Of a stretch of DNA of 62,073 nucleotides, positions 9,322-61,570 are shown in pieces; the first letter of the stretch is position 1, and every line of letters begins with the position of its first letter. This DNA comes from a virus. The stretch lies in the IMG/VR virus record IMGVR_UViG_3300050821_003229, positions 1 to 62,073 of that record; one strand, written 5' to 3'. The notes below the pieces were generated by a model. The model had not been told where the DNA came from. It searched no databases and saw only the letters and a list, made by a program, of their open reading frames with translations. The translations under genes and the position numbers were made by a program.

Positions 9322-9334
9322 CGGAGGAGAAGCA

Positions 9335-9430
9335 ATGAGTTCCGGCGAGTTGATGTATCTCATGTACCACCTCGACGTTATTATCGTCGAGCTAGGCGCG
9401 ATTCTAGCGTGGCTTTGGAGGAAGCAATGA
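9335..9430 (+). CDS. tiny single-TM protein (31 aa)
   Basis: ATG 9335 follows GGAGGAGAAGCA. Residues 12-28 are hydrophobic with an acidic residue in the middle; the basic end (RKQ) would stay in the cytoplasm. Coupled to the next gene (ATGA overlap). Confidence 0.55.
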   Translation: MSSGELMYLMYHLDVIIVELGAILAWLWRKQ

Positions 9431-13214: not shown

Positions 13215-13289
13215 ATGCCCGGTCCGAAGCCCTATATTAAACAACCTAAAGACAAACAGAAGCGCCAGTGGCGCACGAGAGGAAAATGA
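13215..13289 (+). CDS. possible 24-aa basic peptide
   Basis: ATG 13215 to TGA 13289 encodes a very basic peptide (MPGPKPYIKQPKDKQKRQWR...). Its stop overlaps the next start (ATGA), which suggests coupling. The ribosome site is weak. Confidence 0.35.
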   Translation: MPGPKPYIKQPKDKQKRQWRTRGK

Positions 13290-42771: not shown

Positions 42772-43012
42772 GACGAGTGGAGTAATCCATCCCGATCCTT
42801 TCAATGAGGTCGACAACAAAGATCCCAACAAGCCCGATTCGATGGGCGATGACCTCTATTACAACGGATGGGACGAGATCATGAAGATGCACCTGCAAGA
42901 GACCGGTGACATGGTTTCGACCCCCAACAGCGACTCCGGCAAAGACATGATGGGGCACGAAGCCCCCGGCGAGCCCAGCGCCATCAAGAGCATGGGTGGA
43001 GGCAAGAAGTAA
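42764..43012 (+). CDS. hypothetical acidic protein (82 aa)
   Basis: GTG 42764 with AAGGAGATTAAAC upstream. Hydrophilic, Asp/Asn/Gly/Lys-rich, probably disordered. TAATG coupling to the first signal-peptide gene. Confidence 0.5.
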   Translation: MAKTSGVIHPDPFNEVDNKDPNKPDSMGDDLYYNGWDEIMKMHLQETGDMVSTPNSDSGKDMMGHEAPGEPSAIKSMGGGKK

Positions 43013-43434
43013 TGAAACGGACACTAATCGCCCTTGCTGCCCTGTCGCTGTGCATGGTCGGTCGCGCCCACGCACAGACCAGTCTGGCGGACCCGTGCAC
43101 GCAGTACGCTTCGCTGTCGGTAACGAAGTCAATCAACAGCGCCACCACGACTGCGCTGGTGGTTCCGCCGACAACGGGTAGCGTTACTGTTTGTAAGTTT
43201 CTGATTGAGCATCCGGGCGGCACAGGTACCATGGCATTGGAATACGGGTCAGGGACGGCCTGCGCCACCGGTGCGACGCTCCTGAAAGCAGCCTTTGCCT
43301 ACAACACCACGGCGGGCACGCCGACGGTGGAAGCCCAGACGCTAACGATGCCCGTTCCGATGAGCAACGGTGTGTGTGCGCTGAGCACCGGGACCATTGT
43401 GCAGACCGTAACTGTGAATTACGTCGTACACTGA
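43012..43434 (+). CDS. secreted beta protein 1 of tail block (140 aa)
   Basis: Residues 1-22 are a textbook Sec signal peptide (basic MKRTL, hydrophobic core, AHA-Q cleavage). The mature part is Thr/Ala/Gly beta sequence with four cysteines. First of nine late products with such a leader; lies between head and neck genes. Could be an exported decoration- or adhesin-like protein. No family recognised. Confidence 0.6.
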   Translation: MKRTLIALAALSLCMVGRAHAQTSLADPCTQYASLSVTKSINSATTTALVVPPTTGSVTVCKFLIEHPGGTGTMALEYGSGTACATGATLLKAAFAYNTTAGTPTVEAQTLTMPVPMSNGVCALSTGTIVQTVTVNYVVH

Positions 43435-43445
43435 GTTGACGATGA

Positions 43446-44372
43446 ATGGCCGAATCGTACCTTGCTGGACAGCTCGATACCCGGTCATTCGGGACGCAAC
43501 AGGCGAGACTCCTGGATGATCTAAATCGCCCAGATTTCGGCAACATCGTCATCAACTACCTACAGGACGCCATGCGCTACTTTCAGCGCAAGGCGTTCTT
43601 TTTTAACAACACAGATAATACTGCTCAGCCTACGTGGGCCGCGAACACGTTCTACCCCCAAGGCTCGACCATCACGGCTTCGACGGGTGGTACGACCTAT
43701 ACCTTCATTGCTCTCCAAAATGGCGTGGGTCAGAGCGGGGGTTCGCCTCCGGTTTGGCCCGCGACCGTCTTCACGATTCCCGAGGATGTGACCCCGACCC
43801 CCTACCCGCCTCCGGCAATCGGGACAGCGGGAACGGTGGTCGATAACACGGTTTTCTGGGCCAATGCGGCCGTGTGGACACAGGGCATTTGGACGCAGCT
43901 CGCGACGGTCTACAACATCAATCAGTACTTGCCGCCGATTGACTATGTGGCACCGACACTGGTTGAGGTTACGTGGTCGCAGAACATCCGCGAGCAGATG
44001 CAGAAGATTTCTTATGAGGAACTACGCTCCTACGACGTAATCCGACCTTCCCCGCCAAATTCCTACCCGACCATGTGGGCGTGGTACCAGGAGCAGATTT
44101 ACCTCTGGCCATACCCCAACGGCTTCTACTCTCTTACGTTGTCCTATCGTGCATCCCCGCCGCTGGTGCAGGGGGCGGACGATACAAACTTCTGGACAAC
44201 CAAAGCGGAGCGTCTGATTCGGAAGTACGCACAGGCAAGTATCGAGCGCGAGGTACTTAAGGACCAGGAAGCGGCGACAGCTTCGATGGGTGCGGTAGCT
44301 GAGGAATTGAGCGTACTCAAGAGCCAAGCAATTGCGCAGGAAATGTACGCAATTACCCCGAGTAGCTGGTGA
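43446..44372 (+). CDS. head-tail adaptor/neck protein (308 aa)
   Basis: Starts in the cytoplasmic style (MAESYLAGQLDTRSF). NIVINYLQDAMRYFQRKAFFF near the start and LSYRASPPLVQGADDTNFWTTKAERLIRKYAQASIEREVLKD near the end match podoviral adaptor proteins that sit under the portal. An inserted beta segment (residues 55-130) is unusual. Confidence 0.65.
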   Translation: MAESYLAGQLDTRSFGTQQARLLDDLNRPDFGNIVINYLQDAMRYFQRKAFFFNNTDNTAQPTWAANTFYPQGSTITASTGGTTYTFIALQNGVGQSGGSPPVWPATVFTIPEDVTPTPYPPPAIGTAGTVVDNTVFWANAAVWTQGIWTQLATVYNINQYLPPIDYVAPTLVEVTWSQNIREQMQKISYEELRSYDVIRPSPPNSYPTMWAWYQEQIYLWPYPNGFYSLTLSYRASPPLVQGADDTNFWTTKAERLIRKYAQASIEREVLKDQEAATASMGAVAEELSVLKSQAIAQEMYAITPSSW

Positions 44373-45808
44373 TGCCTAATTACCAGCGATATAAGTCCCC
44401 GCAAGAGCTTCAGATATATGACTTTGCGCCGGACCTTGCCTTTGACATGTCGCAGCAGCAGGGCGGCGTGATTTTGGTCGATATGGATCAGGCACAGCCG
44501 ACGGTTAAGGGCTACCAGACGCTTAATTCCGCGCAGCCCTACGTCGCCACTCCCTTGCCCGAGCTTCCGTTGGGGGCAACGCTGGACTATTTCAGCACGA
44601 GGGAAACGCAGGTATTTGCGGGCGGAGCGATGCACCTCTGGCGGGCTTTCGGAAACACCTGGGTTCAAGCGGATCTGCTGGGCGCGGGTTCATTTGGTGC
44701 GGCGGCGCGTTGGCGATTCGCTCAGTTCAATGATGATGTGCTGGCCTTCAATGCCAGCGTTGGACCTCCGCAGGTAGCAACCGGAGCGCTGGGAATCTTC
44801 GCACCGTTGGGCGGAGCGCCACCACAGCATGTAACGACTGGACTCGCGGTCAATGGGCAGGTGTTGGCGTTCTCGGGCACCAACTGGTACGCGAGCGCGC
44901 TAGGGACCGACAATAACTGGACCCCTGACATTCAGACTCAAGCTGGGGCAGGAACGCTGTATGATTTCCCAGGCGATATCGTGGCCTGCGCCCCCATCTA
45001 TCGTAACGTCGTGGTTTTTAAGCAAGGAGCGGCTTGGATTGGTAGCTACGTCGGCGGTGAGGCGGTCTGGAGCTTTCAGCTCATCTCCGATCTGACTGGG
45101 ACGTGGTGTCAAGAGTCCGTGATTGTGCTTCCCGACTGCGTTGCTTTCGTTGGAATAGACGACTTTTATACGACCTCCGGGTACGCCCCGCAACGCATCC
45201 CAAATAATGTCAAGGAATGGTTTTTCGACCAAGCGGACCCTAATAACTTCCAAAACATGCTCAGCCGGTACGACCCGAACCACGCTGTAGCGTATTGGTA
45301 CTTCGTCTCTAAAGCCCCCGCCGTAGCGAATACGCCAGACCGCTACGTGGGATACAACACGCGGACAGGGCGATGGGCGGCAGGCTATCTCGTAACGCCC
45401 TATGTTCCTGCACCAAACTTTCAGGGCGGAGTGTTAACAGGCCTTTATTTCGACCAAAGCAACGTGCTCCAGACTTGGACTGGTATGCCGGGCGTCTCGA
45501 CCTATACCACAGGGTTTTTTGGCACGCCGGGGGTTTTCTCACAGATCATGCGAGCAAAGCCGGTTTATTACGTAGCTCCGCAATATGCGACGGTACAGCC
45601 CTATCACGTAACCAACTTAGGTGGTCCTGTCGTCACGGGTCCGTCTTCGGTGCTCGGCAGCGATGGTTGGTATTACTTCCGGCAGTACGACCGCTGGCAT
45701 CAGTTCAAGATTAATATGGTGGGGCCGGGAGTGATTGAGCCTAACGTCCAGACTGGAGCGGAAATTAGCGCGCTTGATCTAGGCTACCGCGCAGGAGGGT
45801 TGCGCTGA
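44372..45808 (+). CDS. gp10-like DNA stabilisation/head-closure protein (478 aa)
   Basis: Repeating beta blades (VFAGGAMHLWRAFGNTW, VLAFNASVGPPQ, DFPGDIVACAPIYRNVVVFK) and length suggest the beta-propeller family of P22 gp10, which closes the portal channel. Follows the adaptor gene with TGATG overlap, the same order as in P22. No signal peptide. Confidence 0.65.
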   Translation: MPNYQRYKSPQELQIYDFAPDLAFDMSQQQGGVILVDMDQAQPTVKGYQTLNSAQPYVATPLPELPLGATLDYFSTRETQVFAGGAMHLWRAFGNTWVQADLLGAGSFGAAARWRFAQFNDDVLAFNASVGPPQVATGALGIFAPLGGAPPQHVTTGLAVNGQVLAFSGTNWYASALGTDNNWTPDIQTQAGAGTLYDFPGDIVACAPIYRNVVVFKQGAAWIGSYVGGEAVWSFQLISDLTGTWCQESVIVLPDCVAFVGIDDFYTTSGYAPQRIPNNVKEWFFDQADPNNFQNMLSRYDPNHAVAYWYFVSKAPAVANTPDRYVGYNTRTGRWAAGYLVTPYVPAPNFQGGVLTGLYFDQSNVLQTWTGMPGVSTYTTGFFGTPGVFSQIMRAKPVYYVAPQYATVQPYHVTNLGGPVVTGPSSVLGSDGWYYFRQYDRWHQFKINMVGPGVIEPNVQTGAEISALDLGYRAGGLR

Positions 45809-46224
45809 TGATTGCGCCGTTCGATCCTCCGCCGCCGGGGCCGATGAATTTTCAGCGGTTTCAAGACTTGCGGTCTTTTCTGATTACTTGGGTAGTTAAT
45901 AAGTGGATGCAGTACGTCACCAGATACGTGCAGGACTTTCTGCTGCCAGTTTTGAATACCCAGCTATTTAATTATGGGCCTGATATTGCGAGCGCGGCAT
46001 CGATTACCCCCTCAGCAGCGGTTCATCGAATTACGGGCACGGCGGCGATTGCGACGATTAACGCCCCGGTAAATTTCGCAGGGGCCTTCGACGCGATTGC
46101 GGTCGATGGATTCACGACGGTAACCACCGGCAACATCCTGCTTGCGGTGGCCGTGCCAGCCAACCACATGGCACACCTCGCCTATCATCCCGTTATCGCA
46201 AAGTGGGGCATCATTACGTCATGA
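45808..46224 (+). CDS. tail/neck accessory protein (138 aa)
   Basis: Pro-rich start, a helix (LRSFLITWVVNKWMQYVTRYVQDFLLPVLN) and a beta C-terminal half (ITGTAAIATINAPVNFAGAFDAIAVDGF) that looks like a small tail-fibre base domain. Coupled to both neighbours. Possibly links the tailspike to the neck. Confidence 0.45.
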   Translation: MIAPFDPPPPGPMNFQRFQDLRSFLITWVVNKWMQYVTRYVQDFLLPVLNTQLFNYGPDIASAASITPSAAVHRITGTAAIATINAPVNFAGAFDAIAVDGFTTVTTGNILLAVAVPANHMAHLAYHPVIAKWGIITS

Positions 46225-49205
46225 AGAAGTTTATTGCCCTATTGCTTCTGCTGATCATTTTCACCGCGCGGGGAATTGCGCAGGCCGCCGCGCCGACGAC
46301 TTCGGTTATCTCTGGCGTGCTCTACAACGTAGACGGAAGCACCTGCAACAACTGCACGATAACCTTCAACTCGATGGTTGTGCAGACCATCAACAGTGTG
46401 TCGGTTCAGCCTCTAATCCGCTCGACCAAGACCGACGCCAGCGGCAACGTCGCGCCGATCTCCCTGACGCAGGGACTAGCGGTCCAGATAGTGGTTACCG
46501 AGAACGGCATCACCTTCCCCGGAACTCAAGGGATAGTGCCGTTCCTGCCTACTTCGGACATCAGCAATCTTTTCCAAGGGTTCATTTCTGAGCCGCTGAA
46601 CATCCTAGCGAGCCTATATCCTCCAACTGGCCCGCTAGACATGAACAATCAGAAAATCACGGATTTGGCGTGCCCCAGCACAAATAATGACGCGCTCTCG
46701 TGGGGTTGCAACGCGACGGTCAATAATCTCACCGTGACCGGAACCATCAACGTCAATCCCAATACCTCTGGCCTAAACGTCAATGGACGCTTTAGCGTTA
46801 CGGCGCTCACCGACCCAAGTGCGCCGTCCTCGGTAACCGCCCACGGGACCACCGGGGCGACCAGCTACACCTATTATATCGTCTGCCACGACAGCAACGG
46901 CGGGACCACGCTAGTCTCGCCGGGGACGACCGTAGCTAACGGCAATGCGGTCCTCTCGTCGGTTAATTACAACTTGGTTGCTTGGACCTTCCCCACCTTC
47001 GCTACAACCTGCGATGTTCTGCGTGGAGCGACGGCCCAGACCGCCCAATCGATAATTGGTGGCTTGGCGGTCCCATACTCAGCTTCTGCGTCCATCCACG
47101 ACACGAATAATTCGACCTCCACCTACACCATTCCAACCCGCAATACCACGGGCGATGGCAGCTTTGCAGGAAACCTGACGGCGCAGGCCATCACCGGCAC
47201 GTCGGTAACTGGTACGACAGGCAATTTCACCACGTCGCTGACGACTCCGGCAGTGCTGGCAGGAAGCTTGGACAGCGCGGTCTATGTGATGGAAACGGGC
47301 GGGGCCGTCGGTAATGCGCGGGTCGCGAATGTCAGCTACGGCGGGATTACGACAGCAAACGGGTCACATACCCTGACCTGCGCGAATTGTACGTTCCTGT
47401 CAACGGACGTGGGCCAGACGGCAATGGTGCCCGGCTCCGGCGCTCCGGGATTGTTAATGGGCTACGGAGTGACCGCGGGCACGATTAATCTTGCCTCGGG
47501 CGCGGCCTCAGCGACCTTCAGCTATACGCCCACGGGAAACTGCACGGCACATTACAAGAGCGCAACGACGTGGTACACCCAGACGCTCACACTGACAGCG
47601 GCGACCTGCGCGGGAACGCTTAGCAATACGCCGGTCGTGGCTGACAGTCTCATAATTTCCACCCCCGAAGGGGCAGACGCCGTGGACATGGGACCGGCAA
47701 CTTGGATCGGGACGGTGACCGGCTATACCGATGTGCATAACATCACCCTCAGCACGGCCGCTGGATCGACCAACGACAACACCAACGCGGATGGTGTGGT
47801 CTATCTCGGCACCGACGATACGGCGGCTATCAACAACGCTTATGCGGTAGCGCTGACCAACCAGCAAACCTGCAACGTGGAAAGCTTCGATATTAACAGC
47901 GCGGATTGCAACGCCCATCTCATCTTCGACCCAGGACATTCCTATATGACCACTGGGCCGCTGAACTTTAACACCACAAATCTGACCAACGCGATTATTG
48001 ACGGCTATGGGTCGATGCTTTACAGCGCGCAATGTGGTGTAGCGCTGAATCTGCAAAATGCGACACTCGCGGGCCTCAGCGCGCGGACGCAACTGAACGG
48101 CATGAAGGTATTTGGCGCTCTCTGTCAGGGCAGCGAGGGAGTTAACGCGAAATTCGCATGGTGGCCGCGAGTTAGGGACTCAACCTTTATCAATTTTATG
48201 ATGGGGGCTGAGGTTGGTACTAATTCTGGTTCGGGCAGCACGAACGACCTGACGAATTTTGAAAATGTTCTATTCCAATACAACGGTATCGGTGCGCTAT
48301 TCCACGGTTGCGATACTTGCGGGATAGAAGATAGCTACGTGAGCGGCTTTCACGACCGGGGTATAGTTGCTGGCGACTCAACCGGCTCGACCGTCGCCGT
48401 GACGACCAATCTCCAAATCGACCACGTGGAATCGAATGGCGGATTCCCGTCTAGTTCGGTTTGTTATGACATTGGCGGAAATGCGCAGAACCCGTCGCTG
48501 GTCAAATCGTATTGCGAAACCGCCCCAGCGAGCGATGCGAGCGTCGTGCGCTTAGGTGGGGTTGGGCATATTTCGGGAAGCACCTTCGCGCCGACGGTAA
48601 TGAACAATACGTTCTCAATGGGCGACCCCTCGTCGCTGCAACCCGCAATTACGATGGGGCCGGGTAATGTCAAGGCTTTGACGGCCATGTCCAATACTTT
48701 CACCGGCTGGAATGTTGGTTTCTTTTGCGGCAGCAGTACCACTAATTCATTTTTTGGCCCGGAGTTCTTCAACAGCGTAACGACGGACTACTCAAGCTGT
48801 AATGGCATCGTGATACAGGGCGATCTTCTCCAGGAAGCTACGTCGGCTACCGCGGCCGTGCCGGTAACGGCAATAGAAGCCATGAGTCCCGGCGACTTGG
48901 CTATGGCCGCGACTAATGGCGGCCATATCTCCACTCTGCTCGGAACGGGCGTGTCCCCTACGGTGACTACCTGTACCGCGGTCGTTGGTGCGGGCTCCAC
49001 AGATAACGCGGGCACGGCAACGACTTCGGGCGGGACGACCTGCGTGGTGACCTTCGGGACGGCGTTCCTGGACCGTCCCGTCTGCCTAGTTACTAACTTG
49101 ACTCACCCCAACCCGGTAATTCCAACCTACACGGCTGGAACCAGCTTCAGCATAACCCTCAGCAATGCTAATGATAGCTTTAACTGGCTGTGTGCAGGTA
49201 AATAG
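46221..49205 (+). CDS. signal-peptide-bearing beta-helix tailspike (994 aa)
   Basis: Residues 1-22 form a signal peptide (MKKFIALLLLLIIFTARGIAQA). A carboxypeptidase-regulatory-like beta domain follows (TTSVISGVLYNVDGSTCNNC). From about residue 530 a pectate-lyase-type beta-helix starts with GTDDTAAINNA and continues with GIEDSYVSGF-type rungs. Typical tailspikes degrade surface polysaccharide, but they lack export signals. Many cysteines support an oxidising compartment. A palindrome copy encodes FTARG in the leader. Confidence 0.65.
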   Translation: MKKFIALLLLLIIFTARGIAQAAAPTTSVISGVLYNVDGSTCNNCTITFNSMVVQTINSVSVQPLIRSTKTDASGNVAPISLTQGLAVQIVVTENGITFPGTQGIVPFLPTSDISNLFQGFISEPLNILASLYPPTGPLDMNNQKITDLACPSTNNDALSWGCNATVNNLTVTGTINVNPNTSGLNVNGRFSVTALTDPSAPSSVTAHGTTGATSYTYYIVCHDSNGGTTLVSPGTTVANGNAVLSSVNYNLVAWTFPTFATTCDVLRGATAQTAQSIIGGLAVPYSASASIHDTNNSTSTYTIPTRNTTGDGSFAGNLTAQAITGTSVTGTTGNFTTSLTTPAVLAGSLDSAVYVMETGGAVGNARVANVSYGGITTANGSHTLTCANCTFLSTDVGQTAMVPGSGAPGLLMGYGVTAGTINLASGAASATFSYTPTGNCTAHYKSATTWYTQTLTLTAATCAGTLSNTPVVADSLIISTPEGADAVDMGPATWIGTVTGYTDVHNITLSTAAGSTNDNTNADGVVYLGTDDTAAINNAYAVALTNQQTCNVESFDINSADCNAHLIFDPGHSYMTTGPLNFNTTNLTNAIIDGYGSMLYSAQCGVALNLQNATLAGLSARTQLNGMKVFGALCQGSEGVNAKFAWWPRVRDSTFINFMMGAEVGTNSGSGSTNDLTNFENVLFQYNGIGALFHGCDTCGIEDSYVSGFHDRGIVAGDSTGSTVAVTTNLQIDHVESNGGFPSSSVCYDIGGNAQNPSLVKSYCETAPASDASVVRLGGVGHISGSTFAPTVMNNTFSMGDPSSLQPAITMGPGNVKALTAMSNTFTGWNVGFFCGSSTTNSFFGPEFFNSVTTDYSSCNGIVIQGDLLQEATSATAAVPVTAIEAMSPGDLAMAATNGGHISTLLGTGVSPTVTTCTAVVGAGSTDNAGTATTSGGTTCVVTFGTAFLDRPVCLVTNLTHPNPVIPTYTAGTSFSITLSNANDSFNWLCAGK
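46260..46275. repeat. dispersed palindrome copy 10 (one mismatch that removes a stop)
   Basis: TTCACCGCGCGGGGAA, read as FTARG in a signal peptide. In this frame the perfect element would read TTC ACC GCG CGG TGA; the T-to-G change turns the stop into GGA. Confidence 0.8.
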
Positions 49206-49652
49206 ATGAAACGATTAACACTCATGGCTGTCGCCCTGCTGTTCTTCGCAACGGGCGTATCGTTTGCGCAGTCGCAGCCCATTCCGATGCAGGGATGTAA
49301 GCTAGCTGGGTCGTGCGCCTTTGGCGGTTCGCAGATATCGACCGTAACCGTTACGTGGGGAGCTGCTGCCACATCTCGCTTCCTGATGATATTCGATACC
49401 ACGGCCGGAGCTGCCCCCAGCAATGGCGCATCGCCGCCGCTCTGCGCAGCTAATCCTCAAGCCAATCCGTGTCTTCTCTTTTGCAATGCCGCCATAGATT
49501 CGACGACTGCGCCCGGTTTTATCGGAGAGGACTGGACGACACATCCGGTTCAAGGCCGCCACGGGATTGTAGCTGCTATGTCCACGGGGGCGGATTGTAG
49601 CACCTTCACCCAAGATGGGAATAACGACAGCTTTTTCGCGCAAGTGAAGTAG
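49206..49652 (+). CDS. secreted beta protein 2 of tail block (148 aa)
   Basis: Signal peptide residues 1-22 (MKRLT..., cleavage at SFA-QS). The mature part has seven cysteines and beta sequence (ISTVTVTWGAAATSRFLMIFDTT). Same size class as the product at 43012. No family recognised. Confidence 0.55.
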   Translation: MKRLTLMAVALLFFATGVSFAQSQPIPMQGCKLAGSCAFGGSQISTVTVTWGAAATSRFLMIFDTTAGAAPSNGASPPLCAANPQANPCLLFCNAAIDSTTAPGFIGEDWTTHPVQGRHGIVAAMSTGADCSTFTQDGNNDSFFAQVK

Positions 49653-51518
49653 ATGAAGACCATCCTAAAAATCGTCGCCGTAGCGTGGTTGCTGACCGCC
49701 GCCACTGCCCGCGCCCAGATTACCACACCGGATGTAGGTGGTGGTGGAGGCGGTGGTGGGGGCGGTGGTTCTTACGTTCAGAATCATCCTCTCAGCTCGT
49801 CGCCAAGCTGTACGAACCCCGGCGTTCACGACGACGTTTATAACGGGACGCTGGCGGCCAACGCTTCATATACCCTCGTCGATCCCGCCACTTGTAGCGA
49901 TTATGCGATTATCACGCTAAAGCCATATCAGGCCACCTCCGGTGGTCCTTATAGCGTAAATATTAGTACCGCCGGTGGGGCCATTCAGGTTGCCTCACAG
50001 GGGGGCATCTTCACTGCGGCGGGCAATCCCTGCTATGACATGCCCACCTCAACGAGCAACCCCCAAGGCATAGGGAATTGGCAGTTTGTCGCAATCCCGG
50101 AACTGGATGTTTGGGAAGCCTTCTGCCCCGGCACCATCCCAGCTCAAGCGATCCCATCGGCAAACCAGCTTCCGCCGATGAACGGCAATCTCAATTTCTA
50201 CGGTAATAAGGCCACGGGTATAGGCCCCGCCGACCAGAATGGCGATGCGCTAGCCTACGGACAAACCGGTGCGCAGGTCGCTCAGACGATTCCCGATGTT
50301 GCGTTCGTGAGCGGCGCAATAACCACAGCGGTTACAAGCACAAACACCATAACGGTGACCCGCCCAGCCAGTTTAGTTACCAGCAATATTGCTCTGGTGG
50401 CAGTGTGGGATACCGGAGGTGGCGCCACGCCGAATCCGATTACGTCCACGGGTCAAGCGGTCTTCCAGCCGGTGATGTTCAGTAACGGCCTGGGCTGTCA
50501 AACGGCTACGCAGAATACCGGAGAGACCGTCTGCCTGTTCTATTATGTTATCTCGAACACCAATCCCTCGACCTGGACCTTCCAGACACAGACCACGGCA
50601 GCGACAATTCAGGCGGCAGCGGTCCAATTCAGCGGGACGACCACCAGCTTTGACGGTATCCCGACCGTGCAGATGGGCAACTACAACACGCTCATCTCGA
50701 ACCCGGTATCGCAGCAGTATAACTACGATATTCCGGTCTATTTCGGGGTGCAGGCGAGCGGTTCGGGCGCGGCAACGTTTACGCACGTTCTCGCTGGGGT
50801 AGCCGACCCGACCACGGGCTATTCCTCAGGCACCTCGAATAGTTTGTTCGCTTATGGCCCATTGAGTGGTCCGACCAACACGGAGCTTTCTTCCCCGGCT
50901 GCGACCTTCACTGGAGAGGGCGGTAACGTTGACGACACTATCGTGATGCAGCTCAACCTTGCACCGATAGCCACCCAGGCAGGCGCTGCGATTCCGCACA
51001 ACGGTACGACTTCGTACATGATCTTTACGGGAACGCCGACGACCGTTACCTGTAATACTAATAGAGAAAATGCCTTCTTGGTAAACGCCGGGGTCGTCTA
51101 CACCTGCCATAGCTCCACGTGGGTAAATGAGAAGCCTTATGACATTTCGTTCCCAATTACCGGGGCCGCGTCGGGGTATGCGAATGCGCAGCTCATGTTC
51201 TCCACCACCAGGGCGTTGCACTTCCCGGCCAATTTCGCCTCGACCACCTTCCCCGCGACCAACTCCACTGCGGGTTGCGTGACCGCTCCGGGCGAGACGG
51301 ATACTTGGACGCTCAAAGACCTAACGGCAGCGACCACTATCGGCACGGCAGCTCTGGGTACGACCTGTACTACAACCGGAATAAATACCGGAGTGACCTT
51401 TGCAACGACAGGCGGTGTGCAAATTGACGTGGCGGCCGGGCATTTACTGGAGTTGCTTGCGCCGGGTACGGTTAGCGGTTCTAATCAGAGCATCACTTTC
51501 GCAGCGTTTACTCCATAG
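49653..51518 (+). CDS. secreted fibre-like protein with poly-Gly hinge (621 aa)
   Basis: Signal peptide to ARA-Q (residue 22), then ten glycines in a row (about residues 29-39) as a flexible hinge. Two beta domains follow: residues 200-330 resemble a carbohydrate-binding-like sandwich, and the C-terminal part resembles a fibre tip. Thr/Ala/Gly-rich with paired cysteines. Likely an exported or tail-displayed adhesin. Confidence 0.5.
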   Translation: MKTILKIVAVAWLLTAATARAQITTPDVGGGGGGGGGGGSYVQNHPLSSSPSCTNPGVHDDVYNGTLAANASYTLVDPATCSDYAIITLKPYQATSGGPYSVNISTAGGAIQVASQGGIFTAAGNPCYDMPTSTSNPQGIGNWQFVAIPELDVWEAFCPGTIPAQAIPSANQLPPMNGNLNFYGNKATGIGPADQNGDALAYGQTGAQVAQTIPDVAFVSGAITTAVTSTNTITVTRPASLVTSNIALVAVWDTGGGATPNPITSTGQAVFQPVMFSNGLGCQTATQNTGETVCLFYYVISNTNPSTWTFQTQTTAATIQAAAVQFSGTTTSFDGIPTVQMGNYNTLISNPVSQQYNYDIPVYFGVQASGSGAATFTHVLAGVADPTTGYSSGTSNSLFAYGPLSGPTNTELSSPAATFTGEGGNVDDTIVMQLNLAPIATQAGAAIPHNGTTSYMIFTGTPTTVTCNTNRENAFLVNAGVVYTCHSSTWVNEKPYDISFPITGAASGYANAQLMFSTTRALHFPANFASTTFPATNSTAGCVTAPGETDTWTLKDLTAATTIGTAALGTTCTTTGINTGVTFATTGGVQIDVAAGHLLELLAPGTVSGSNQSITFAAFTP

Positions 51519-51526
51519 GAGGAGCA

Positions 51527-52126
51527 TTGAAACTACACGGCATTTTGGCGGCTATGGTCCCTGTCTCTATGTTGTTGTGCGGCATGGCCTTAGCGGGTGG
51601 TACGCCCATCCAGTTTGCGGGGGCTGGTACGTTTGACCAGGGCGGGTTTGATTTGAGCCCATGTACTGCTTTCGGGCAGCCGCACGCCGCGAGCATCCAA
51701 AAAGTCTCATCGGGTTCGACCTTCGGTATCGTTAAGGCTTACGGGAACCCCATTTTCGGGGTCTTCGGTTCTACGGACCCCTGGGGTTTTGCAATGGCAA
51801 CGACGGTATGGTTGACCAATACGACCGATTCCAAGGTGGGGGTCCGTTTGGTGACGCACCACGGGCCGGGTTGTTCCAACACCTGCCAAGCCAACGGCAA
51901 TTGTACGGATGCCACTTGGACTGGCTGCGTAGACGAAGGAAAGCCGGTAGTGACGGTTCCTGCGAATTCGACTGTTGCGCTGGATGTGGGCAGCTTCGAT
52001 TCGAACATGACCAACGCTCAGTTCGGCAATTCATTCGTCACCGTTGAGCCTACCAATGGTCCGATAGTTTGCGCTGAAACTGATTGGGGTCAGGCAGGCT
52101 ACGACCAAGTACCGGGTAACGAGTAA
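51527..52126 (+). CDS. secreted Cys-rich protein, tandem paralogue 1 (199 aa)
   Basis: TTG 51527 behind AGGAGGAGCA. Signal peptide to about residue 24 (GMALA-GG). The mature part has cysteine motifs CTAFGQP, HHGPGCSNTCQANGNC, TWTGC and a final CAET. Shares a 28-base identical block and overall plan with the next gene. Disulfides imply periplasmic or outside location. Family unknown. Confidence 0.6.
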   Translation: MKLHGILAAMVPVSMLLCGMALAGGTPIQFAGAGTFDQGGFDLSPCTAFGQPHAASIQKVSSGSTFGIVKAYGNPIFGVFGSTDPWGFAMATTVWLTNTTDSKVGVRLVTHHGPGCSNTCQANGNCTDATWTGCVDEGKPVVTVPANSTVALDVGSFDSNMTNAQFGNSFVTVEPTNGPIVCAETDWGQAGYDQVPGNE

Positions 52127-52137
52127 GGAGGGAAGCG

Positions 52138-52785
52138 ATGAAGTTACGACGGGTTTTGGCAATTGTGAGCGCGAGCGCGCTGGCCTTGTGCGGGATGGCA
52201 TATGCTGGCGGTACTCCGGCGGGCTTCACGGGCTACGGGTCATTCGACCGTTACCAGTTCGACATGAGCCCATGTACTGCTTTCGGGCAGCCGGGCGCAA
52301 CGCAGATCAACACGGTTAGCGCGGCCTCGGTGAATGCTGTCGTTGAGGCTTATGGATTCGACCCTTACGACGAGTACAACAGCACCGACCCGTGGGATTT
52401 CACGATGGACGCAACGATTTGGCTAACAGCGGGTGGCTCGCCGGTCACGGTCGAGATTGACACGCACCACGGACCAGCGTGTACCAACACCTGCCTCGGT
52501 AACGGCAACTGCAAGAACGCCACTTGGTCTAATTGTATCAATGAGGTAGACCCTCCCGTGACAATTCCAGCGGGCGCGACTGTGCAACTACAGGCGCATA
52601 CCCTCGATGCGGGTGAGGCGAACTCAGCTTATGTAAACGGGGCCTGGAACGCGGCACCCTATCTTATGGTAGACAACACCTACGGCAATTCGTATGTCAC
52701 GTTCAAGCCGATGGGTGGCTCCGTGACCTGCAATAAGGTCGATTGGACACAAGAAGGGTTCGACGACGTGCCGGGTAATTTCTAG
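52138..52785 (+). CDS. secreted Cys-rich protein, tandem paralogue 2 (215 aa)
   Basis: AAGGAGGGAAGCG precedes the ATG. Signal peptide to AYA-GG, then MSPCTAFGQPG, HHGPACTNTCLGNGNCKNATWSNC and CNKVDW, matching paralogue 1 with identical Cys spacing. Each ends with a V-P-G-N motif. Probably a beta-sandwich surface protein. Confidence 0.6.
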   Translation: MKLRRVLAIVSASALALCGMAYAGGTPAGFTGYGSFDRYQFDMSPCTAFGQPGATQINTVSAASVNAVVEAYGFDPYDEYNSTDPWDFTMDATIWLTAGGSPVTVEIDTHHGPACTNTCLGNGNCKNATWSNCINEVDPPVTIPAGATVQLQAHTLDAGEANSAYVNGAWNAAPYLMVDNTYGNSYVTFKPMGGSVTCNKVDWTQEGFDDVPGNF

Positions 52786-52792
52786 GAGCATT

Positions 52793-54292
52793 TTGCGATT
52801 AATCGCTACCACTCTCGCGGTTCTGATAGCGCTGCTCTGCGTGGCGCAAGTTGCGCGGGCAACGCCAGCGCCAGATAACACCTGCGGGGGTGGCAGTAGC
52901 CCTTGTATCGCAACCGGCACTGGGGCGGCTCCGTTCACCTTCTCAATCACCTCTGGAACTAACTACAAAACTACCGACCAGTGCGTCATTCTCGAAACGA
53001 TAAGCGGCAACGGCTTCGGTAGCGACCCGGCCAGTTGGACCTCGATCCCTAGTTGGCTACAGAATTCAAACGGGCCGCGATTCAATGGGCTTTACCGGCT
53101 TGACATGTCAGGTGCCCCGACCTCTGTAGTGATCACCAGTTCGTCGGGAACACCGAACGTGTTCGCCTATATGCAATGCTTTACTGGTGTGGGCGGCATA
53201 GGGCGCAGTAGCGCGACACATTTTCAAGCGAACGGCACTGCGACGACGTTTCCCTCCGATAGCTTCACGCCGCTTAGCACGAGTGGCTATCTGCTCTTGG
53301 GGTACGCTGGGAACCAAAACTTCACTTACACCGGAACGTCGGTCGGTTCGATTTTAAACCAGTACAATAATACCAATTCCCTGGTTTTTGCCGGAGAAGC
53401 CCCAACCATCAGTTCGCCCACGGGAGCCCAGACCATCAGTTTTGCCTCACGAACCGTTGCCGGGGAGGGTGCGCAGGTCGAACTTGATCCGCCGCTAATT
53501 ACGAACGATGACACTATTACAGTACCCGCACCCGTCAGCACCACGGCGCTTTCGGTACCCATACCAGGATCTGGTTCGCCCGGCTGCAACACTGGCGATT
53601 TAGCGGTCATTAACTGCAACTCTAATGGATCACAACCCTCGTGGCCTCCATTAACCGGCACTTGCAACGGGGGCAATTGGCAGCTCATATCACAAAACAC
53701 TGGTGTATCTCAGGGATATTCAATGTGGTATTGCCCTGCTCTTGCATCCGGTGATCGGGGACAGACGTTAGTTTGTAATGCTACCACGACTCACTTCCTA
53801 ACGGCCCAAGGTGGTTGTTGGACGGGGGCGGCGATTGACTTCTCGGCTGGTTGCGTAAGTGGGCTATGTTTTAAGTCGATTGCAAACACAGCGTCCTCAA
53901 CGTTCTTGTTTCCAGAAATCACTGGCGCCGGAAGTCTAAATACTTCTCAAGACGTAATTACTTTTTGGGACTACGTTAATGGAAATTCGGGAGGTTTCGG
54001 TAGCACTTGGAGTGTAGGTGCGACAATCGGTACGCCGCTGGCGTCCGCTCAAGGTTCTGAGATTCTTGGTGAGGCGACGGCCTCGTCCAACGCTCTGTCT
54101 GCTGGATTTAGCCCAGCGTGGCCGCAGTCTGTCGCGACCCAAGGAGCATCGGTCTCTAATCTTGGGCAAACCCTTGCGTTGCAGCCCGCCAGCGCAGCAT
54201 CCCCGACTCCGACGCCGACGGCAACCGCGACACCGACCGCGACACCCACCGCAACGCCAACGCCGGTACAGTTTGTGATTATAGGGCAATAA
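52793..54292 (+). CDS. secreted beta protein with Thr-Pro tail (499 aa)
   Basis: TTG 52793, signal peptide to VARA-TP. Two similar beta domains, each with Cys and aromatic residues (TSSGTPNVFAYMQCFTGVGG; TTTHFLTAQGGCWTGAAIDF), suggest an internal duplication. The C-terminus is a [15 protein letters not shown] linker ending VQFVIIGQ, as if a further domain had been lost. Role unknown. Confidence 0.5.
   Translation: MRLIATTLAVLIALLCVAQVARATPAPDNTCGGGSSPCIATGTGAAPFTFSITSGTNYKTTDQCVILETISGNGFGSDPASWTSIPSWLQNSNGPRFNGLYRLDMSGAPTSVVITSSSGTPNVFAYMQCFTGVGGIGRSSATHFQANGTATTFPSDSFTPLSTSGYLLLGYAGNQNFTYTGTSVGSILNQYNNTNSLVFAGEAPTISSPTGAQTISFASRTVAGEGAQVELDPPLITNDDTITVPAPVSTTALSVPIPGSGSPGCNTGDLAVINCNSNGSQPSWPPLTGTCNGGNWQLISQNTGVSQGYSMWYCPALASGDRGQTLVCNATTTHFLTAQGGCWTGAAIDFSAGCVSGLCFKSIANTASSTFLFPEITGAGSLNTSQDVITFWDYVNGNSGGFGSTWSVGATIGTPLASAQGSEILGEATASSNALSAGFSPAWPQSVATQGASVSNLGQTLALQPASAASPTPTPTATATPTATPTATPTPVQFVIIGQ
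54200..54270 (+). repeat. Thr-Pro-Ala codon repeat
   Basis: Tandem ACN-CCN-ACN/GCN triplets encode the Pro-Thr linker at the end of the 499-aa protein; two similar tracts occur in the 1772-aa protein. Confidence 0.8.
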
Positions 54293-54293
54293 G

Positions 54294-55754
54294 ATGAAGA
54301 TATTAGCAATGTGCGCAGGGTTGATGGCTTTGGCCTCGGCCGCGTTTGCGGGTTCGCAAGTGAACGATGCCAACGGTATGTATTGGAAAAACCCAAGCGG
54401 GTTTCCTGCGATTGAGACCGCTGCGAACGCACAGAACCCAGCTATCAACGGAGCCTTAATCCAGATGGCCTGGACCACCCTAGAGCCCGCGCGGAACACC
54501 TTTTCGTGGACAACGCTCGATAGCGCGCTCGCCAATTTCATCGCAGCGGGCCGCAAGATAAAGCTCAACGTTTACGCAGGGACTTCGACCCCGCTTTGGC
54601 TCTTTTCCGAGGGGTCGCCGATAATCGGTGATTTCTACCGGGTCTCCTTTGCTAACACGACCACCGGAACCTATAACGGTCTCGGGGCCAAGGCCTGCTC
54701 GAATCAGGATGAGCCGGTGCCCTACGATCCAATCTTCGAGAAGGAATGGGAAAACCTGATAACCAACCTGCAAGCGCATCTGGCGTCTGCGAACGAGCTA
54801 AATTCGGTAACCATACTGCAAGATTCGGCAGTCTCCGAAGCAACCGATGAATTCTTTGTCCCGTACCGGAAACCGGGAGTCACGACTAACTCTCAGAACG
54901 AGTCGCTGCCGCTTTCCGGCGCAGCGATGAACATCAGCAACGCTACCTACCTGACCTTTGCCGTTGGAGCCACCACGGCAGGCGCGGCGGTGGACGGAAG
55001 CGGGAATATCTACAGCTACACGGGGATAACCACGGGTGCTTCGTGCACTGAGGATGGGGTTGGTCCCTGCATGGTGGGCGTGAACAGCACGGGAGCCGGT
55101 ACACTGACCGCCGGTTCGACCCTTACCGAGGAGACTATCCGGGTCGGCACCAGCTCTGGCAACTGCGACCAGACTCACGGGGGAATCTTCTCGAACGTCA
55201 GCGGAAGCAACACTTGCTATTGCAACGTGGATGCTCAGACTGAATGGGCGTCTAACGGCTACTCACGCACGAAGATGGAGAATGCAGTCAAGGCGCTTAC
55301 CATCTACGATGCGGCGGTTTTCCCCAATCAGATAGTGCCCAATCTAGTTGGTGTGCAGGGAGGCCAGTTCCCCGCCATCGACTACAACGGCAACGTCTAT
55401 ACCGACAATAACGCTAAGAACGGAGATGCAACGGTCCACGTAGACCTCTTCGCATGGATGTCTCAGTATTTTGGGCAGCGAGCGGACACTCAGGTCAATT
55501 CTTATAACCAAACCGCAATATCGCTCGTAACCTACTATCAGAGTGTGCCGACCTTCCCGGTCAACGGCGCGTCCTACCAAGCGATAGCGGCTTACAACAA
55601 CACCACCAACTTTGGGACGGCCATGACCTCCTTAAGTACCGGCCAGACCCCGGATTGGTTCGAGGTGTTTGGACCGCAAGATCTCACCGGGAACGCCACG
55701 GACATAGCTTCCGCATATACTGCAATGGGGCTTTTAATTGCGAACCAACGCTAA
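54294..55754 (+). CDS. secreted glycoside-hydrolase-like TIM barrel (486 aa)
   Basis: Signal peptide to [46 protein letters not shown]...PLWLF is the opening beta-alpha unit of clan GH-A barrels (GH5/GH42-like). [15 protein letters not shown] may carry the acid/base Glu. Several Cys pairs. Exported enzyme probably acting on cell-surface glycans; catalytic residues need modelling. Confidence 0.55.
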
Positions 55755-58700
55755 ATATCTCGCTCTGGCTGTACTCCTGCTGGTTGCGTCACAGGCGCAC
55801 GCCTTCTCGATTTCACAGAACGGCACACCCGCGCAGAACAAGTGCACCACTGCGAGCAATAGCTGCGCGGTGACCATCCCATCGAATGCTGGGACCGCCT
55901 ACGGCTCAGACGTGTTCCTTGATTGCAGCGTGTTAGCCGCTGGAATCACTAATTTCACGACCCCGCCACCGCCATCGGCGATGGACAACGATGTATGGCA
56001 CCCTCTCGCCGGTACCAGCCAGAGTACCCACTCTCCGTCGCACCAAATCTTCTGGAAGGTGCTCGAACCCAACGATATCAACGTATCTACGCAGTGCGCC
56101 TACACCGGCACGGCGGCCCAGATTAATGCCGAAGTCTTTTCCACTACCTTTGGAATGCCCTGGGTCGCAGCCACGCAATGGAACGCAACTGGGACCACGA
56201 ACGCCTGCGTAGGGCCAGCCGTTACGCCTGTCACCGCGAATGACTTCCAAGTGTTCCTTTGCGATGCGGCGAACAACTCGACGACCTTCTCATCTCCGAA
56301 TAACACCGGCGGGTTTCCGATGTCCCTGTGGGCCTCAGCGAATGGGTTGGGCCTATCTAGCGGCTTCTTAACGGGCTGGACGAGCGGGACAGGAGGAACC
56401 AATCAGGCGACTGCGAGCGGTGGCGGCGTAGCCAGCGAAGGCACGACCATCGACATAACCCCGCTCAATCTCGATGTAGAGCGCCTGACCGACGATAATA
56501 ATCCGACCACTAGCGCTTCGGCCCTTTACACTGGCCCAACTGGCATTCCCGGATGGCCTTCGGACTATGTTGGGGTGTTTTGCCGTATTCACGCGGACAG
56601 TTTTATCACAGGTTGCTCGGGTACGAACCTAACCTACAACTGGGGGTACTTCGACGCCTGTCAGACGGCGGCGGCCCGAGGCAACAAAGAGTGGACGCTG
56701 GCCCCTTACTTCGCAGGCTGGACCCCAGCCTGTGTTATTGCGAACTACCACATACCACTGGTTACTGGCCTCAACTCAGGTACTTGTTATGGCGCTGGGG
56801 CTACGACCACTGGTAACGCTACTTCGTGTCCGATTGTGTGGGATCCAGGATACTTAAATTACATCAATACAGTAGATCAGGCTATGAAGGTCCGATATGC
56901 GAGCGACCCCAAAGCCTCGATCATGGCAAATGGGTTCACGGCACACTCTGAAGAAACGGGCTTTCTCATCCATGGCGCTGGCGATAGCACTGCTTGGGTA
57001 AATGCTGGATATACCGTCGCGAAGGGAGTTGCGGGATTCGATACCATTGTTCAAAATGCGATAAACACAGGAATGCCGGTTGGAACGCAGTGGGTAATTA
57101 CGTCGTTTCCGACGGGAGACTGGACGCCCTATATTCAAAGTATCTACCAGAGTCCCACCTTTTTTCCTGTATGGATTCAGACCAACTCGCTAGGGAACAA
57201 CGCATACAACCCGACTGGCATCATTCCGCCGTCCTACGCGCTGGTCAGCCCGACCATGCTGGCGAATATCGGGTTTCAGATAGATCTCAGCACGATACCC
57301 CCGCCCGCGCAGCTCGGATACTACCTAAATCAGGCATCAAACGCGGCCATTAATAATTCGCCGGGGAATTTGCGCGTAGCGGAAGTTTATCCAGGAACGA
57401 TAGGCACGGCTACGGCTACGCCTACCATGACGCCGACGCCGACTCCGACTGGCCCGACACCAACGTCCACTCCAACGGCGACGCCTACCCCGACTCCCAC
57501 GTCTACGGTAACGGCTACGCCTACGATAACCGCTACTCCGACGCCCGGAGCCGTTGCAAGCGTGGCTACCACAGCCACGACCGTTCGGCCCTTTGGAGCA
57601 CTCAAGGAAGGCACCGACATTATCGGCGATTACAATCGGTTCGACCCAAGCAATACGGAGCTGCAAAATTGGCTACCAAATCCGGGATTCGAGCCAATGA
57701 CGCTAGGCCACGTAATCGTGGTAGCAAGCCCGACCACAACGACGTTTAAAGACACCAACGATGCTTTTGCCCCTGAGGCGACGAATTATTGGAATGGGCA
57801 GACCGTCTCGATCAGATCCGGGACCGGAGCTGGAACAACCTTCGTAATCTCTGGGTATGCTGCGGGCGGCACCTACACCTGTACCGGAACGTGCCCGACG
57901 CTAGCTGCCGGTCAAATCTTGGCTGAGTACAAGAGCGACCTCACGATGGGCTACAGCCCCTCGGCGAACGATATCCCGGGTGACATCGGGACGAGTGGAG
58001 CAGGAGTCACGATAGTATCGTCTCCCGCCCCCGAGGACGGCCAGACCAGCGTTCAGATGGTGGGCAATAATCAGTACATAACGCTCGGTATGGATGTTCC
58101 TAGCACCCCATGGGGCACCTGCGCGATTACGCCCGCCTTGTTGTGTAACAACCCCGGAGGCAATGACAACGGCGACTGCGGCGGAGTGAATCCAACCTGT
58201 AACGCCTTTCCCTATTATCCGTGGCACCCGGTCGTTGGTTCGATGACAACGAGCTATTGGGCGCGGGCCTGCGGATCCGCGGCTTGCACAACGAATTCCT
58301 TTGGTACTCCAGTGGCGAACGTCACCATAACGAGGGCAGGGGCGGGCGGTTGGACTAAGGCTTTTAATGACACCCTAATTAATGATCACCAATGGCATCA
58401 ATATATCGACAATTGGTCCGCGATTCCTGGTACGAGCGGGGACACCGCAACCACGACGGGTCAGCTAACGTGGACCATCGATATTAGCGGACAGTCTGCG
58501 GCAGACGATAGCTATTGGGACGATGCTTTCGTTGGCCCAAGCAACACGACAGCGGCGGGCGGGTTTAGCACAACTGCGCTGACGACGCTTCAGTCTCTAT
58601 TCGCAGACGACGTAGCCCCTAGCGGGCCTCTCGCCACGACTCGGTATATGGACGCGTCCTCCGGGGCTCCGGGCGGTGGTGGAACAGTCTCCCGGTTGTG

Positions 58701-61056
58701 CCCCGACAGTGTGTTCGAGGGCAACGACTACCAGCGCGGGCCTTGTGGCAGTATGAGCCGTGCGGCGGGGCAAGTAGGGTCGCAATGGAAATTCTCGGTT
58801 AGCGACATGTATGCTCTGGATGCACAAATCGGGGCAATTGCATGGGTTAGTATTGGAGATGTTTTCTACGATACTGACGTGAATCTTTACGGTCAGCATC
58901 TTTGTAATGCGTTTGCGGCGGGTTTACCTGGTGCGGTGGTTGAGCAGAACAACGAAGATTGGATCTCAGGAGCATCGACGGGAGGCGGCTCCGACGGCCT
59001 CAACTACGGCAAGATGTCGTTTAGGAATTTTGGATTGATTCTCGCTCAGATGAACGCGTTATGCCCAGCGGATGTGCCATTGGTGGCGTTCGTCGGTGGT
59101 GGCCAGACTGGCAACAGTGGAGTTATGTCCAACGCCACTTCGCAGTTTCCAACGAACCAAGCGAACAACCCATACGGATCGGCCACTGCCAATTATATCC
59201 AGTGTGGGAATAAGCCCGCCACGGGCCAGACGTTAGCTCAAGATGCTGAGATGGCTTTTTGTTCAGCGGCCAGTCAGTTTTATAATACTTTGGGTAGTCT
59301 CCGGTCGGCTATTCCGTTGTGCACTACGTACCCGATTAGCCCCTCAACATCGGCGTGCTTGAACGGCATTCCTAGTAACGTCACAGGTGGTATTTGTGGC
59401 GGCAACATAACCAATTGTAGCGGTGCACCAACCACGCAACAGTTCATTGCGGCTTATGAAGAAGGTGTCGGTGGGGCTGCGCCGGGTAGCACGGCAACGA
59501 CCTACGAAACAGCCGAGCAGACCGGAACGTACCTTGCTGGTGCGGCAACTGGACTAGAGATGATGCTCGATACTCAGCTCGGAACAACTGGCCCGAATAG
59601 CGGTACGTTGTTGCCAATTGGGATGCACAACCAATATCAGTTTGTTCAGTATAACGGTTCCGTGTCAGGTGCGCCGACGGGCATCCAATGGGGGGCGGTC
59701 AGTGATTTTGACTGTAACTTTGGTCCTGATTGCTCGGTAAATGGCGGACATATCCGGCCTCAAGGAATCGTGCTGCGGCTGCACAATATGGTGGTTCAGC
59801 CGAATTACTACGAAACGATTGTCACCGGTACGGGCGGAACCTTCGTTAACAGCTACAAAGGGACCAATTGGAGCGCAGAGTTTGCCAACGCGAACTCGAC
59901 AGCGGTCCCAATGGTCATTAATTTCCCGGCTGGTACAGTGCCAACAACCGGCGTGGTGCTATCGGGCGCGGCGCTGGACTCGAACAACGAAAACTCCAAC
60001 TCCGTCACCATCCAACCGTTGGCTGTGACAGTATCCGGGCAGAGCGTGAGTTTCATTGCCCCCGCTTACGGGTATGGCGGTTTCCCCGCGGTGCTGGTGC
60101 CGACTCCGACACCAACCGCAACGCCAACTCCGACACCGACGGTTACGGCGACGCCGACGGCAACTCCAACGGCGACTGGACCAACTCCTACGCCGTCGGC
60201 AACGAACACGCCGACGGTTACCCCGACGCCTACGATTACCCCGACGGATACGCCAACCGATACGCCCACCCCCACGGTGACGGTCTCGCCTACCCCCTTG
60301 GCCACGCCGGTACCCTGTAATATTTCGGGCTTTGGGGCTACCTGCAATCAGCAAATCGCAACTTCGGGCTCTACTGGCTCGCTGGTCTTCCCGCCCATCA
60401 TAGTTGCGAAGCCAGGAGATACGCTGGTCGTGCAGCTCGCATGGGGAAACAGCTACACGCCGGTGGTCACATGTTCCGATAATAACGGCAACACCTGGAC
60501 CGGATTTCAGGACAACGGCCTACCCCGAGTCAACACCAGTGGCCTTTGGTACACGACGGGCGGGACTAAGAACCCCAATCAAACAACGACCACCGTCACC
60601 TGTACGTGGACAGGCGGAACGCCCCTTTCGCAATGCGGCAATCTATCGGATTGGACGGGCACGGTTGGGGTCGTTGATGTGGGGCCGGTTGGAACGAACG
60701 GGAGTGGTAGTAGCACGGCCACCTGGGGAGCGCTCACGACGACCAACCCAACCGACATAATCATCGGTTCGGTGGCCAGCGCGGGTACGGATAATCCGGC
60801 CTCCGTTAGTGGCGCGAGCAGTAGCCAAATCGTTACGCCAGTATTAATGGCTAACGGCAGTTGCCCAGGTCCAGCTTATTTCGCCCCTTCTGGCGCGGTA
60901 GTTGATCTGACCGGCACATATCAATTCACCTACCCGCAAGTAGGTGGCGCGGCTAGCTATGATGGCACGGGAATCACCCTGGAGATCCAGCCAGCTCCGA
61001 GCCCAACGCCAACCCCTAATGGGCCGCTATATTCGGTGCCGGTGCACCCCTTCTAG
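55738..61056 (+). CDS. giant secreted double-barrel glycoside-hydrolase-like protein (1772 aa)
   Basis: TTG 55738, signal peptide to QAHA-FS. Residues about 250-550 look like one GH-A-type barrel ([28 protein letters not shown] near 403). A Thr-Pro linker (556-603) and a beta domain follow. A second barrel has [10 protein letters not shown] (NE motif, about 1066-1076) and AAYEEGVGG (about 1239) with a C-terminal beta sandwich. A second Thr-Pro linker (about 1453-1524) leads to a final beta domain. By far the largest gene; overlaps the previous one by 17 bases. Confidence 0.55.
57405..57545 (+). repeat. Thr-Pro linker repeat 1 in the giant protein
   Basis: ACN-CCN-rich tandem triplets (TPTPTPT-type) linking the first barrel to the next domain. 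Confidence 0.8.
60095..60310 (+). repeat. Thr-Pro linker repeat 2 in the giant protein
   Basis: About 70 codons of alternating Thr-Pro/Ala before the last domain, longer than the first linker. Confidence 0.8.
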
Positions 61057-61099: not shown

Positions 61100-61570
61100 G
61101 TGAACGAATGGAGTCCTCCAATACCGACCACCTTAACCAATGGCCTAGAGCACATCCCGCATACGAAGAAGCCGGGGAGCACGGCCGTGAAGGCGACAAT
61201 GGCTACGGCTGACGGCAACGGGGCTATACTGCTCGACTGGAAGCTGTTTATCGGCGGCATCGTCGCGCTTTTAGCTACGGGGCTGGCCCTGGGTATCGTT
61301 TTCGCTCAACACCTTCCCTTTATGACGACCGACGAGATCAAGCCGATCACCGACAACCTATCGAATCAGATTGCCCAGCAGGGATTAGCGCTAACCCAGC
61401 TCCGTCAGCAGGTTACCGACGACGAAAATAAGTGGTATTCTCTCAGCGAAAAGCTTGACGACCTACGCACCGATACTAAGGCTGGGCAGGCCCAGATTAT
61501 TCAACGCTTAGACGATGAGACCCGGGATCGTGAAACTCAGGAGCAGCAGCAACCACGGCGCGGACGGTGA
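61100..61570 (+). CDS. TM plus coiled-coil protein, possible i-spanin (156 aa)
   Basis: GTG 61100 with AAGGATG upstream; ATG 61198 is an alternative. One membrane segment (about residues 49-72) is followed by about 75 residues of coiled coil (ITDNLSNQIAQQGLALTQLRQQV..., ETRDRETQEQQQ). This topology fits an inner-membrane spanin or a tail-associated membrane protein. Followed by a tiny TM gene and, across the junction, the holin-like gene. Confidence 0.5.
   Translation: MNEWSPPIPTTLTNGLEHIPHTKKPGSTAVKATMATADGNGAILLDWKLFIGGIVALLATGLALGIVFAQHLPFMTTDEIKPITDNLSNQIAQQGLALTQLRQQVTDDENKWYSLSEKLDDLRTDTKAGQAQIIQRLDDETRDRETQEQQQPRRGR

Follow-up and report, generated by a model that had tools for sequence, protein, structure and literature searches.

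Predicted Sec leaders on tail-region proteins in a clade of soil podoviruses, with a possible route for fibre assembly outside the cytoplasm

The window analysed here (the complete 62,073-base record of an uncultured virus, IMG/VR record IMGVR_UViG_3300050821_003229, classed as linear) belongs to a soil podovirus with a phrog_334-type capsid, in which nine products of the late tail block, named below by the first base of their genes, begin with what appears to be an export signal for the host Sec pathway. The assignment to podoviruses follows from the large terminase (phrog_38), the portal (phrog_156), the major capsid protein encoded at 40179 (phrog_334), the adaptor-like 43446 product and the nozzle-like 44369 product. 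The tail block forms a tight operon with the neck genes, with stop and start codons coupled as ATGA (Table 1). An earlier note on this DNA had listed nine open reading frames (ORFs) with leaders, and all of them are present at the starts it gave. The “consecutive block” it described does hold for the eight-gene run from 46221 to 61056, which is uninterrupted, whereas 43012 is set apart from that run by three leaderless genes. Regarding the starts themselves, a 1000-residue frame is mechanically listed from 46203, but translation probably begins at 46221, with an ATG that forms an ATGA overlap with the stop of the gene before it; the starts at 49206 and 49653 adjoin the upstream stop, and clear Shine-Dalgarno motifs precede 51527 and 52138.

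Leaders were identified with a purpose-written scorer, which evaluates the n-, h- and c-regions and was calibrated on 98 kb of E. coli K-12, where 11 of 13 known type-I signal peptides score 6.9 or more and none of the 54 cytosolic proteins does so (maximum 6.1), its false positives being polytopic membrane proteins. The nine products (43012, 46221, 49206, 49653, 51527, 52138, 52793, 54294 and 55738) score between 7.26 and 8.55. The other predicted genes of the window stay at about 6 or less, 6.2 being exceeded only by two predicted lipoproteins (1302-1733, plus strand, and 3481-3987, minus strand), and a score of 7 is reached by just 3 of 225 unselected ORFs. Each of the nine leaders combines a K/R-containing n-region, an uncharged hydrophobic stretch and a small-x-small c-region, as is typical of substrates of Sec and signal peptidase I, and none of the nine products contains a further transmembrane-like segment. 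A lipoprotein reading was considered and rejected, given that no cysteine stands at the predicted cleavage sites. Scoring also bears out that the neck proteins 43446, 44369 and 45808 have no leader. Judging from these sequence features, the nine products are very probably exported by Sec, and translocation, cleavage by signal peptidase I and disulfide formation would be expected to accompany this export. Since every one of the eight products encoded 3' of the nozzle-adjacent gene, up to 61056, bears a leader, any receptor-binding protein encoded there would be exported.

Table 1. Genes and features of the tail block of the window; export, leaders and likenesses are predictions.
Feature	Position	Strand	Details
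140-residue predicted exported product, before the neck genes	43012..43434	+	leader 43012-43074; score 7.55; 4 mature Cys
Adaptor-like neck protein, no leader	43446..44372	+	phrog_19385/phrog_2941
Nozzle-like tail protein, no leader	44369..45808	+	phrog_3287
Small nozzle-adjacent protein, no leader	45808..46224	+	stop overlaps spike ATG as ATGA
994-residue putative spike/fibre precursor	46221..49205	+	leader 46221-46286; score 8.18; 24 mature Cys
Virion-anchor-like beta domain directly behind the leader	46299..46592	+	AlphaFold2 pLDDT 89, pTM 0.78; Foldseek matches
148-residue Cys-rich predicted exported product	49206..49652	+	leader about 49206-49268; score 7.28; leader-bearing homologue in L022/L126
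621-residue predicted exported product	49653..51518	+	leader about 49653-49715; score 7.82; no family match
199-residue Cys-rich predicted exported product	51527..52126	+	leader 51527-51595; score 7.38; paralogue of 52138
215-residue Cys-rich predicted exported paralogue of 51527	52138..52785	+	leader 52138-52206; score 8.03
499-residue predicted exported product, Thr-Pro tail	52793..54292	+	leader 52793-52861; score 7.93; 12 mature Cys
486-residue predicted exported GH42-like product	54294..55754	+	leader about 54294-54350; score 7.26; PF02449 2.2e-5
1772-residue predicted exported multidomain product, Thr-Pro linkers	55738..61056	+	leader 55738-55803; score 8.55; 38 mature Cys

Searches with the capsid protein retrieved 20 relatives whose capsid proteins are 58-87% identical, together with a large outgroup in which identity stays below 46%. 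The closest capsid proteins among annotated phages are about 28-41% identical and include those of Rhizobium, Paracoccus, Burkholderia and Erwinia podoviruses, and a prophage search of sequenced genomes returned only capsid relatives at 45% identity or less, mostly in Alphaproteobacteria and mostly in Rhizobiales. Further tail regions (L124-L129, several of them other parts of contigs already counted) were retrieved through the nozzle protein. Late proteins with leaders occur in the window and in L002, L004, L009, L010, L016, L017, L022, L024, L025 and L026, as well as in L124-L129 (in some cases via deep starts). Counted as contig groups, leaders are carried by proteins of the tail region or structural module in the window, L002, L004, L009/L124/L125, L016/L017, L022/L126, L021 (L127), L024/L025 and L026/L128; in L126 and L128 they are present on practically all tail-block products. 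In the outgroup, leader-like scores were obtained for 3 of the 176 ORFs that lie downstream of the nozzle gene, at least one of the three being a glycine-rich hydrophobic stretch, and only two leader-scoring ORFs were found downstream of the capsid gene in 51 loci. A maximum-likelihood tree of the capsid protein places the whole group on a branch with 100/100 support and the leader-less L005-L008 on a nested branch, also with 100/100. The premise of the earlier note that tail proteins lack leaders is correct for the outgroup, with the few exceptions just given, and for the subclade L005-L008, and this makes the contrast testable. The simplest history suggested by these sequences is one origin of the leader trait and one loss, which exchange of tail modules could complicate.

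This distribution also bears on the suspicion of an artefact, namely a chimeric assembly, misplaced start codons or N-termini that are hydrophobic by chance. The assembly is metagenomic and several of the starts are TTG; yet neck genes are interspersed with the leader-bearing ones, which are found again in more than 10 independent contigs and begin at conserved stop/start overlaps, and high scores are rare among unselected ORFs, as given above. On the basis of the recurrence across contigs and of the ATGA junctions, we rejected this explanation as very improbable. Two other observations were made on the structural modules of the relatives. L009 (9363-9803) and L010 (9364-9804) have, just upstream of the capsid gene, a leader-bearing gene for a 146-residue protein with 8 cysteines, 59% identical between the two contigs. 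In L016 (651-6200) and L017 (3951-11086) the structural module is rearranged, with the nozzle gene, the nozzle-adjacent gene and a leader-bearing fibre gene upstream of the major capsid gene.

Immediately after the small nozzle-adjacent gene comes a gene that opens with a shared domain of about 95 residues. In the window, L002, L004, L009, L016 and L017 this domain stands behind a leader at the head of a long protein, while in L022 and L026 the gene with leader and domain lies a few genes further on, and in L005, L006, L007 and L008 the same domain begins with a plain N-terminus. The ATGA overlap of the start codon with the upstream stop is identical with and without the leader, which indicates gain or loss of a leader ahead of an otherwise shared domain. 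An AlphaFold2 model of the domain gives an all-beta fold with a predicted local distance difference test (pLDDT) score of 89 and a predicted template modelling (pTM) score of 0.78. Its best Foldseek matches among solved structures are the tail tips of Bxb1 (9d93) and Ur-lambda (9e7m_Ta), the neck and tail fibre of cyanophage A-1(L) (8keg/8kec), these three with E values of 7e-4 to 5e-3, and the neck of XM1; in a library of viral models it matches N-termini of tail fibres, one of them named as a lambda-like tail fibre N-terminal domain. The likeness to the virion-anchored domains of Ur-lambda, Bxb1 and A-1(L) extends to the N-terminal position in a long fibre and to a gene directly after the tail genes, the differences being the Sec leader in front of the domain in the window and an identity of only 10-22%. 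Based on the model, the domain directly behind the 46221 leader looks like a virion-anchor domain, and the gene itself, directly after the tail nozzle genes, occupies the canonical fibre position.

Fibre identity is clearer in some of the relatives. PHROG and Pfam S74 matches identify the tail proteins of L005 and L007, which have no leader, as tail fibres, and the leader-less S74 fibre L007_18534 has fibre repeats in common with leader-bearing proteins of L016, L017, L022 and L026; the leader-bearing L124:4886 contains a tailspike-type beta-helix (PF12708, 1e-10). A Pfam search of the 46221 product gave no match, either C-terminal to the anchor or elsewhere, and a scan for the anchor domain with a two-sequence query returned only contigs that were already known. 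Sister lineages with and without a leader before the same anchor domain constitute a natural experiment. They also bring in the notion of dual targeting, in which the leaders are real and often bypassed, with part of the protein folding fast in the cytoplasm and entering virions and the rest being exported. The anchor domain that works without a leader in L005-L008 speaks for it, as do known cases of trimeric beta-helical phage fibres that fold in the cytoplasm; nevertheless, the strong h-regions and the high cysteine content suit efficient export and oxidation, and the leader persists across most of the clade, so that we consider dual targeting improbable.

The cysteine content is high in the leader-bearing chains, with 1.79 cysteines per 100 residues in their mature parts. 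The tail proteins of L005-L008, by comparison, have 0.52, and those late proteins of the window that bear no leader have 0.44. The paired-cysteine richness described by the earlier note is found as richness: the nine mature products, in gene order, have 4, 24, 6, 10, 6, 6, 12, 6 and 38 cysteines, all even numbers (in five of the nine only through removal of a cysteine in the leader). The parity is not reproduced in the relatives, where about half of the counts are even, and was for this reason given little weight.

The leaders and the mature chains evolve differently. In three pairs of products from L126 and L127 the leaders are 39, 47 and 59% identical, against 92% for the first 100 mature residues, and the ratio of nonsynonymous to synonymous substitution rates (dN/dS) is 0.24-0.71 for leaders versus 0.06-0.13 for mature chains, with both members of each pair still leader-like. 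Such drift in front of conserved chains argues for a discarded Sec leader and against a motif kept in the virion. Of the two options left by the earlier note, export of a set of adhesins, hydrolases and a spike is therefore supported (by the calibrated leaders, their recurrence in the clade, the cysteine content and the leaderless neck proteins), while the idea of a novel peptide that sorts proteins into virions, being recognised as these assemble in the cytoplasm, is not. The leaders are indeed specific to tail-region genes in this clade, as a sorting peptide would be, but their sequences differ from gene to gene and even among close relatives, and they fit the Sec pattern calibrated on E. 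coli; the sorting motif was rejected on the drift and has a very low probability.

As for the individual products, homologues of 43012 are found in L004 (L004_4716, with a tandem repeat) and L009 (L009_103). The 51527 and 52138 products are 46% identical and have six mature cysteines in common, and a scan for this family found no further members. The 54294 product matches Pfam glycoside hydrolase family 42 (GH42, PF02449) at 2.2e-5, above the cut-off, over about 50 residues only. The central region of the 55738 product is conserved in L124 and L125 and an NE[ED]W motif is kept in the three phages, which we take to be the kind of motif expected of clan GH-A enzymes; the AlphaFold2 model of this region (pLDDT 34) is unusable. 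Family searches of the nine products gave no match to lysozyme, amidase or peptidase families. Taken from their sequences, 54294, 55738 and the small cysteine-rich products would fit exported hydrolases or adhesins. The Thr-Pro repeat linkers of the 52793 and 55738 products (54206-54270, 57406-57545 and 60097-60314) resemble those of many bacterial extracellular enzymes.

Assembly of tailed phages is generally placed entirely within the cytoplasm, and we know of no textbook assembly pathway for them which includes export of tail fibres before the virion is completed. The explanation we favour, to which we assign a probability of about 0.48, is that fibres and hydrolases are exported by Sec and that the anchor-bearing spike docks on virions after the inner membrane is breached. 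The tail fibre or spike and the accessory tail-region proteins would be made as Sec precursors. SecYEG would translocate these late in infection, signal peptidase I would remove their leaders, and the mature chains would undergo oxidation in the periplasm. The mature 46221 spike, with the anchor domain as its N-terminus, would then dock on the nozzle or adaptor of heads already filled with DNA, when lysis breaches the inner membrane, whereas the GH-like and small cysteine-rich products would act as hydrolases or adhesins on the envelope or exopolysaccharide, bound to the virion or free. Docking is favoured on two grounds: the genes that follow the nozzle include none for a leaderless fibre, and the exported spike has retained its virion-anchor domain. 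Among docking, receptor destruction, exclusion and biofilm exit, the modelled anchor fold behind the leader points to docking, at least for the 46221 spike. What the computation shows is the leaders, their start sites and spread in the clade, the anchor fold, the cysteine enrichment and the drift of the leaders; translocation, cleavage, disulfides, docking after export and enzyme activity are inferences. The more specific proposal that the virion is finished outside the cytoplasm, with disulfide-bonded fibres waiting in the periplasm for DNA-filled particles to appear at the breach, is tentative, and we judge it somewhat less probable.

Several observations weigh against the favoured explanation. 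In L024 the anchor-domain protein is leaderless and the fibres downstream of it bear leaders, so that leader and anchor are separable. L124 and L125 keep one leaderless protein of 118-119 residues in an otherwise leader-bearing block, and the even cysteine counts are peculiar to the window. The record is linear, and a leaderless fibre could thus lie outside the recovered sequence. Finally, 49653, 51527, 52138, 52793 and 54294 have no homologue in the relatives retrieved and may therefore be accessory cargo instead of virion parts. In the main rival explanation, the leader-bearing products are exported and never become virion parts, serving as free or envelope-bound adhesins and glycan hydrolases (for superinfection exclusion, receptor destruction at exit or exopolysaccharide breakdown). 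It would accommodate the GH42-like and GH-A-like products, the paralogous small cysteine-rich products, the leader-bearing cargo genes that precede the capsid gene in L009, L010 and L017, at other sites of the late module, and the arrangement in L024. Against it, a domain of virion-anchor type is retained directly behind the leader of the 46221 product and of its homologues, whose genes lie in the usual place of a fibre gene, and the window offers no leaderless fibre for receptor binding; we regard it as unlikely, albeit less so than dual targeting.

Some known systems resemble that of the window in part. The podoviruses and prophages with phrog_334 capsids (PBC5, BcepIL02, RHph_Y1_10, KLEP18-1 and prophages of Rhizobiales) have homologous capsid proteins and a similar order of portal, terminase, adaptor and nozzle genes, but their tail-region genes almost never carry leaders. 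Tailed phages use Sec for some endolysins, such as Lys44 of fOg44, which has a signal peptide, and the signal-arrest-release (SAR) endolysins (PMC6116005); these are likewise late proteins which pass through the host Sec and are held outside the membrane until lysis, yet they are lysis enzymes, whereas the block in the window consists of a fibre and accessory proteins in which no lysin domain was found. Filamentous phages are reported to use Sec for their coat proteins (PMC8310372). The mosaic adhesive trimer (MAT) fibres of Bdellovibrio are phage-like trimeric fibres behind signal peptides (PMC10769870), from which it follows that such fibres tolerate export; they differ in being encoded by the bacterium and displayed on its surface. 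Membership of the MAT superfamily was considered for the leader-bearing fibres and rejected (no sequence match to the chains in the Protein Data Bank, and no S74 in those of L016 and L022). A literature search turned up no tailed phage whose tail fibres are described as leader-bearing, although it covered open-licence papers only and the absence is hence weak evidence.

Docking after export, if shown, would be a new assembly route. If the clade routinely exports its receptor-binding fibres through Sec, it would have a second assembly compartment and a route to disulfides in fibres, and free phage adhesins or hydrolases would form a pool around the infected cell ahead of lysis. A signal peptide alone is also shown to be insufficient grounds for classing a virome gene as an auxiliary host gene.

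Other features of the window and its relatives were recorded. No tRNA was found in the window, and no endolysin was recognised among the window genes searched; the sequence at 61100-61570 has a weak likeness to an Rz-like spanin (E 0.011). A stand-alone DnaA C-terminal DNA-binding domain (PF08299, 1e-16) is encoded at 13268-13753 (plus strand). Between the portal and capsid genes, throughout the clade, lies a gene which in the window (36898-38175, plus strand) encodes a 425-residue protein with a weak ATP-grasp likeness (GARS_A, 0.0013). A glycosyltransferase-like protein (41271-41993, plus strand; phrog_34859, 1.4e-6) is encoded between the capsid gene and a conserved small late gene, and is found in some relatives only. 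On L109, a contig of the leader-less relative L007, the reverse complement of 8330-9538 holds a candidate integrase-like ORF, which may suggest a temperate member of the group.
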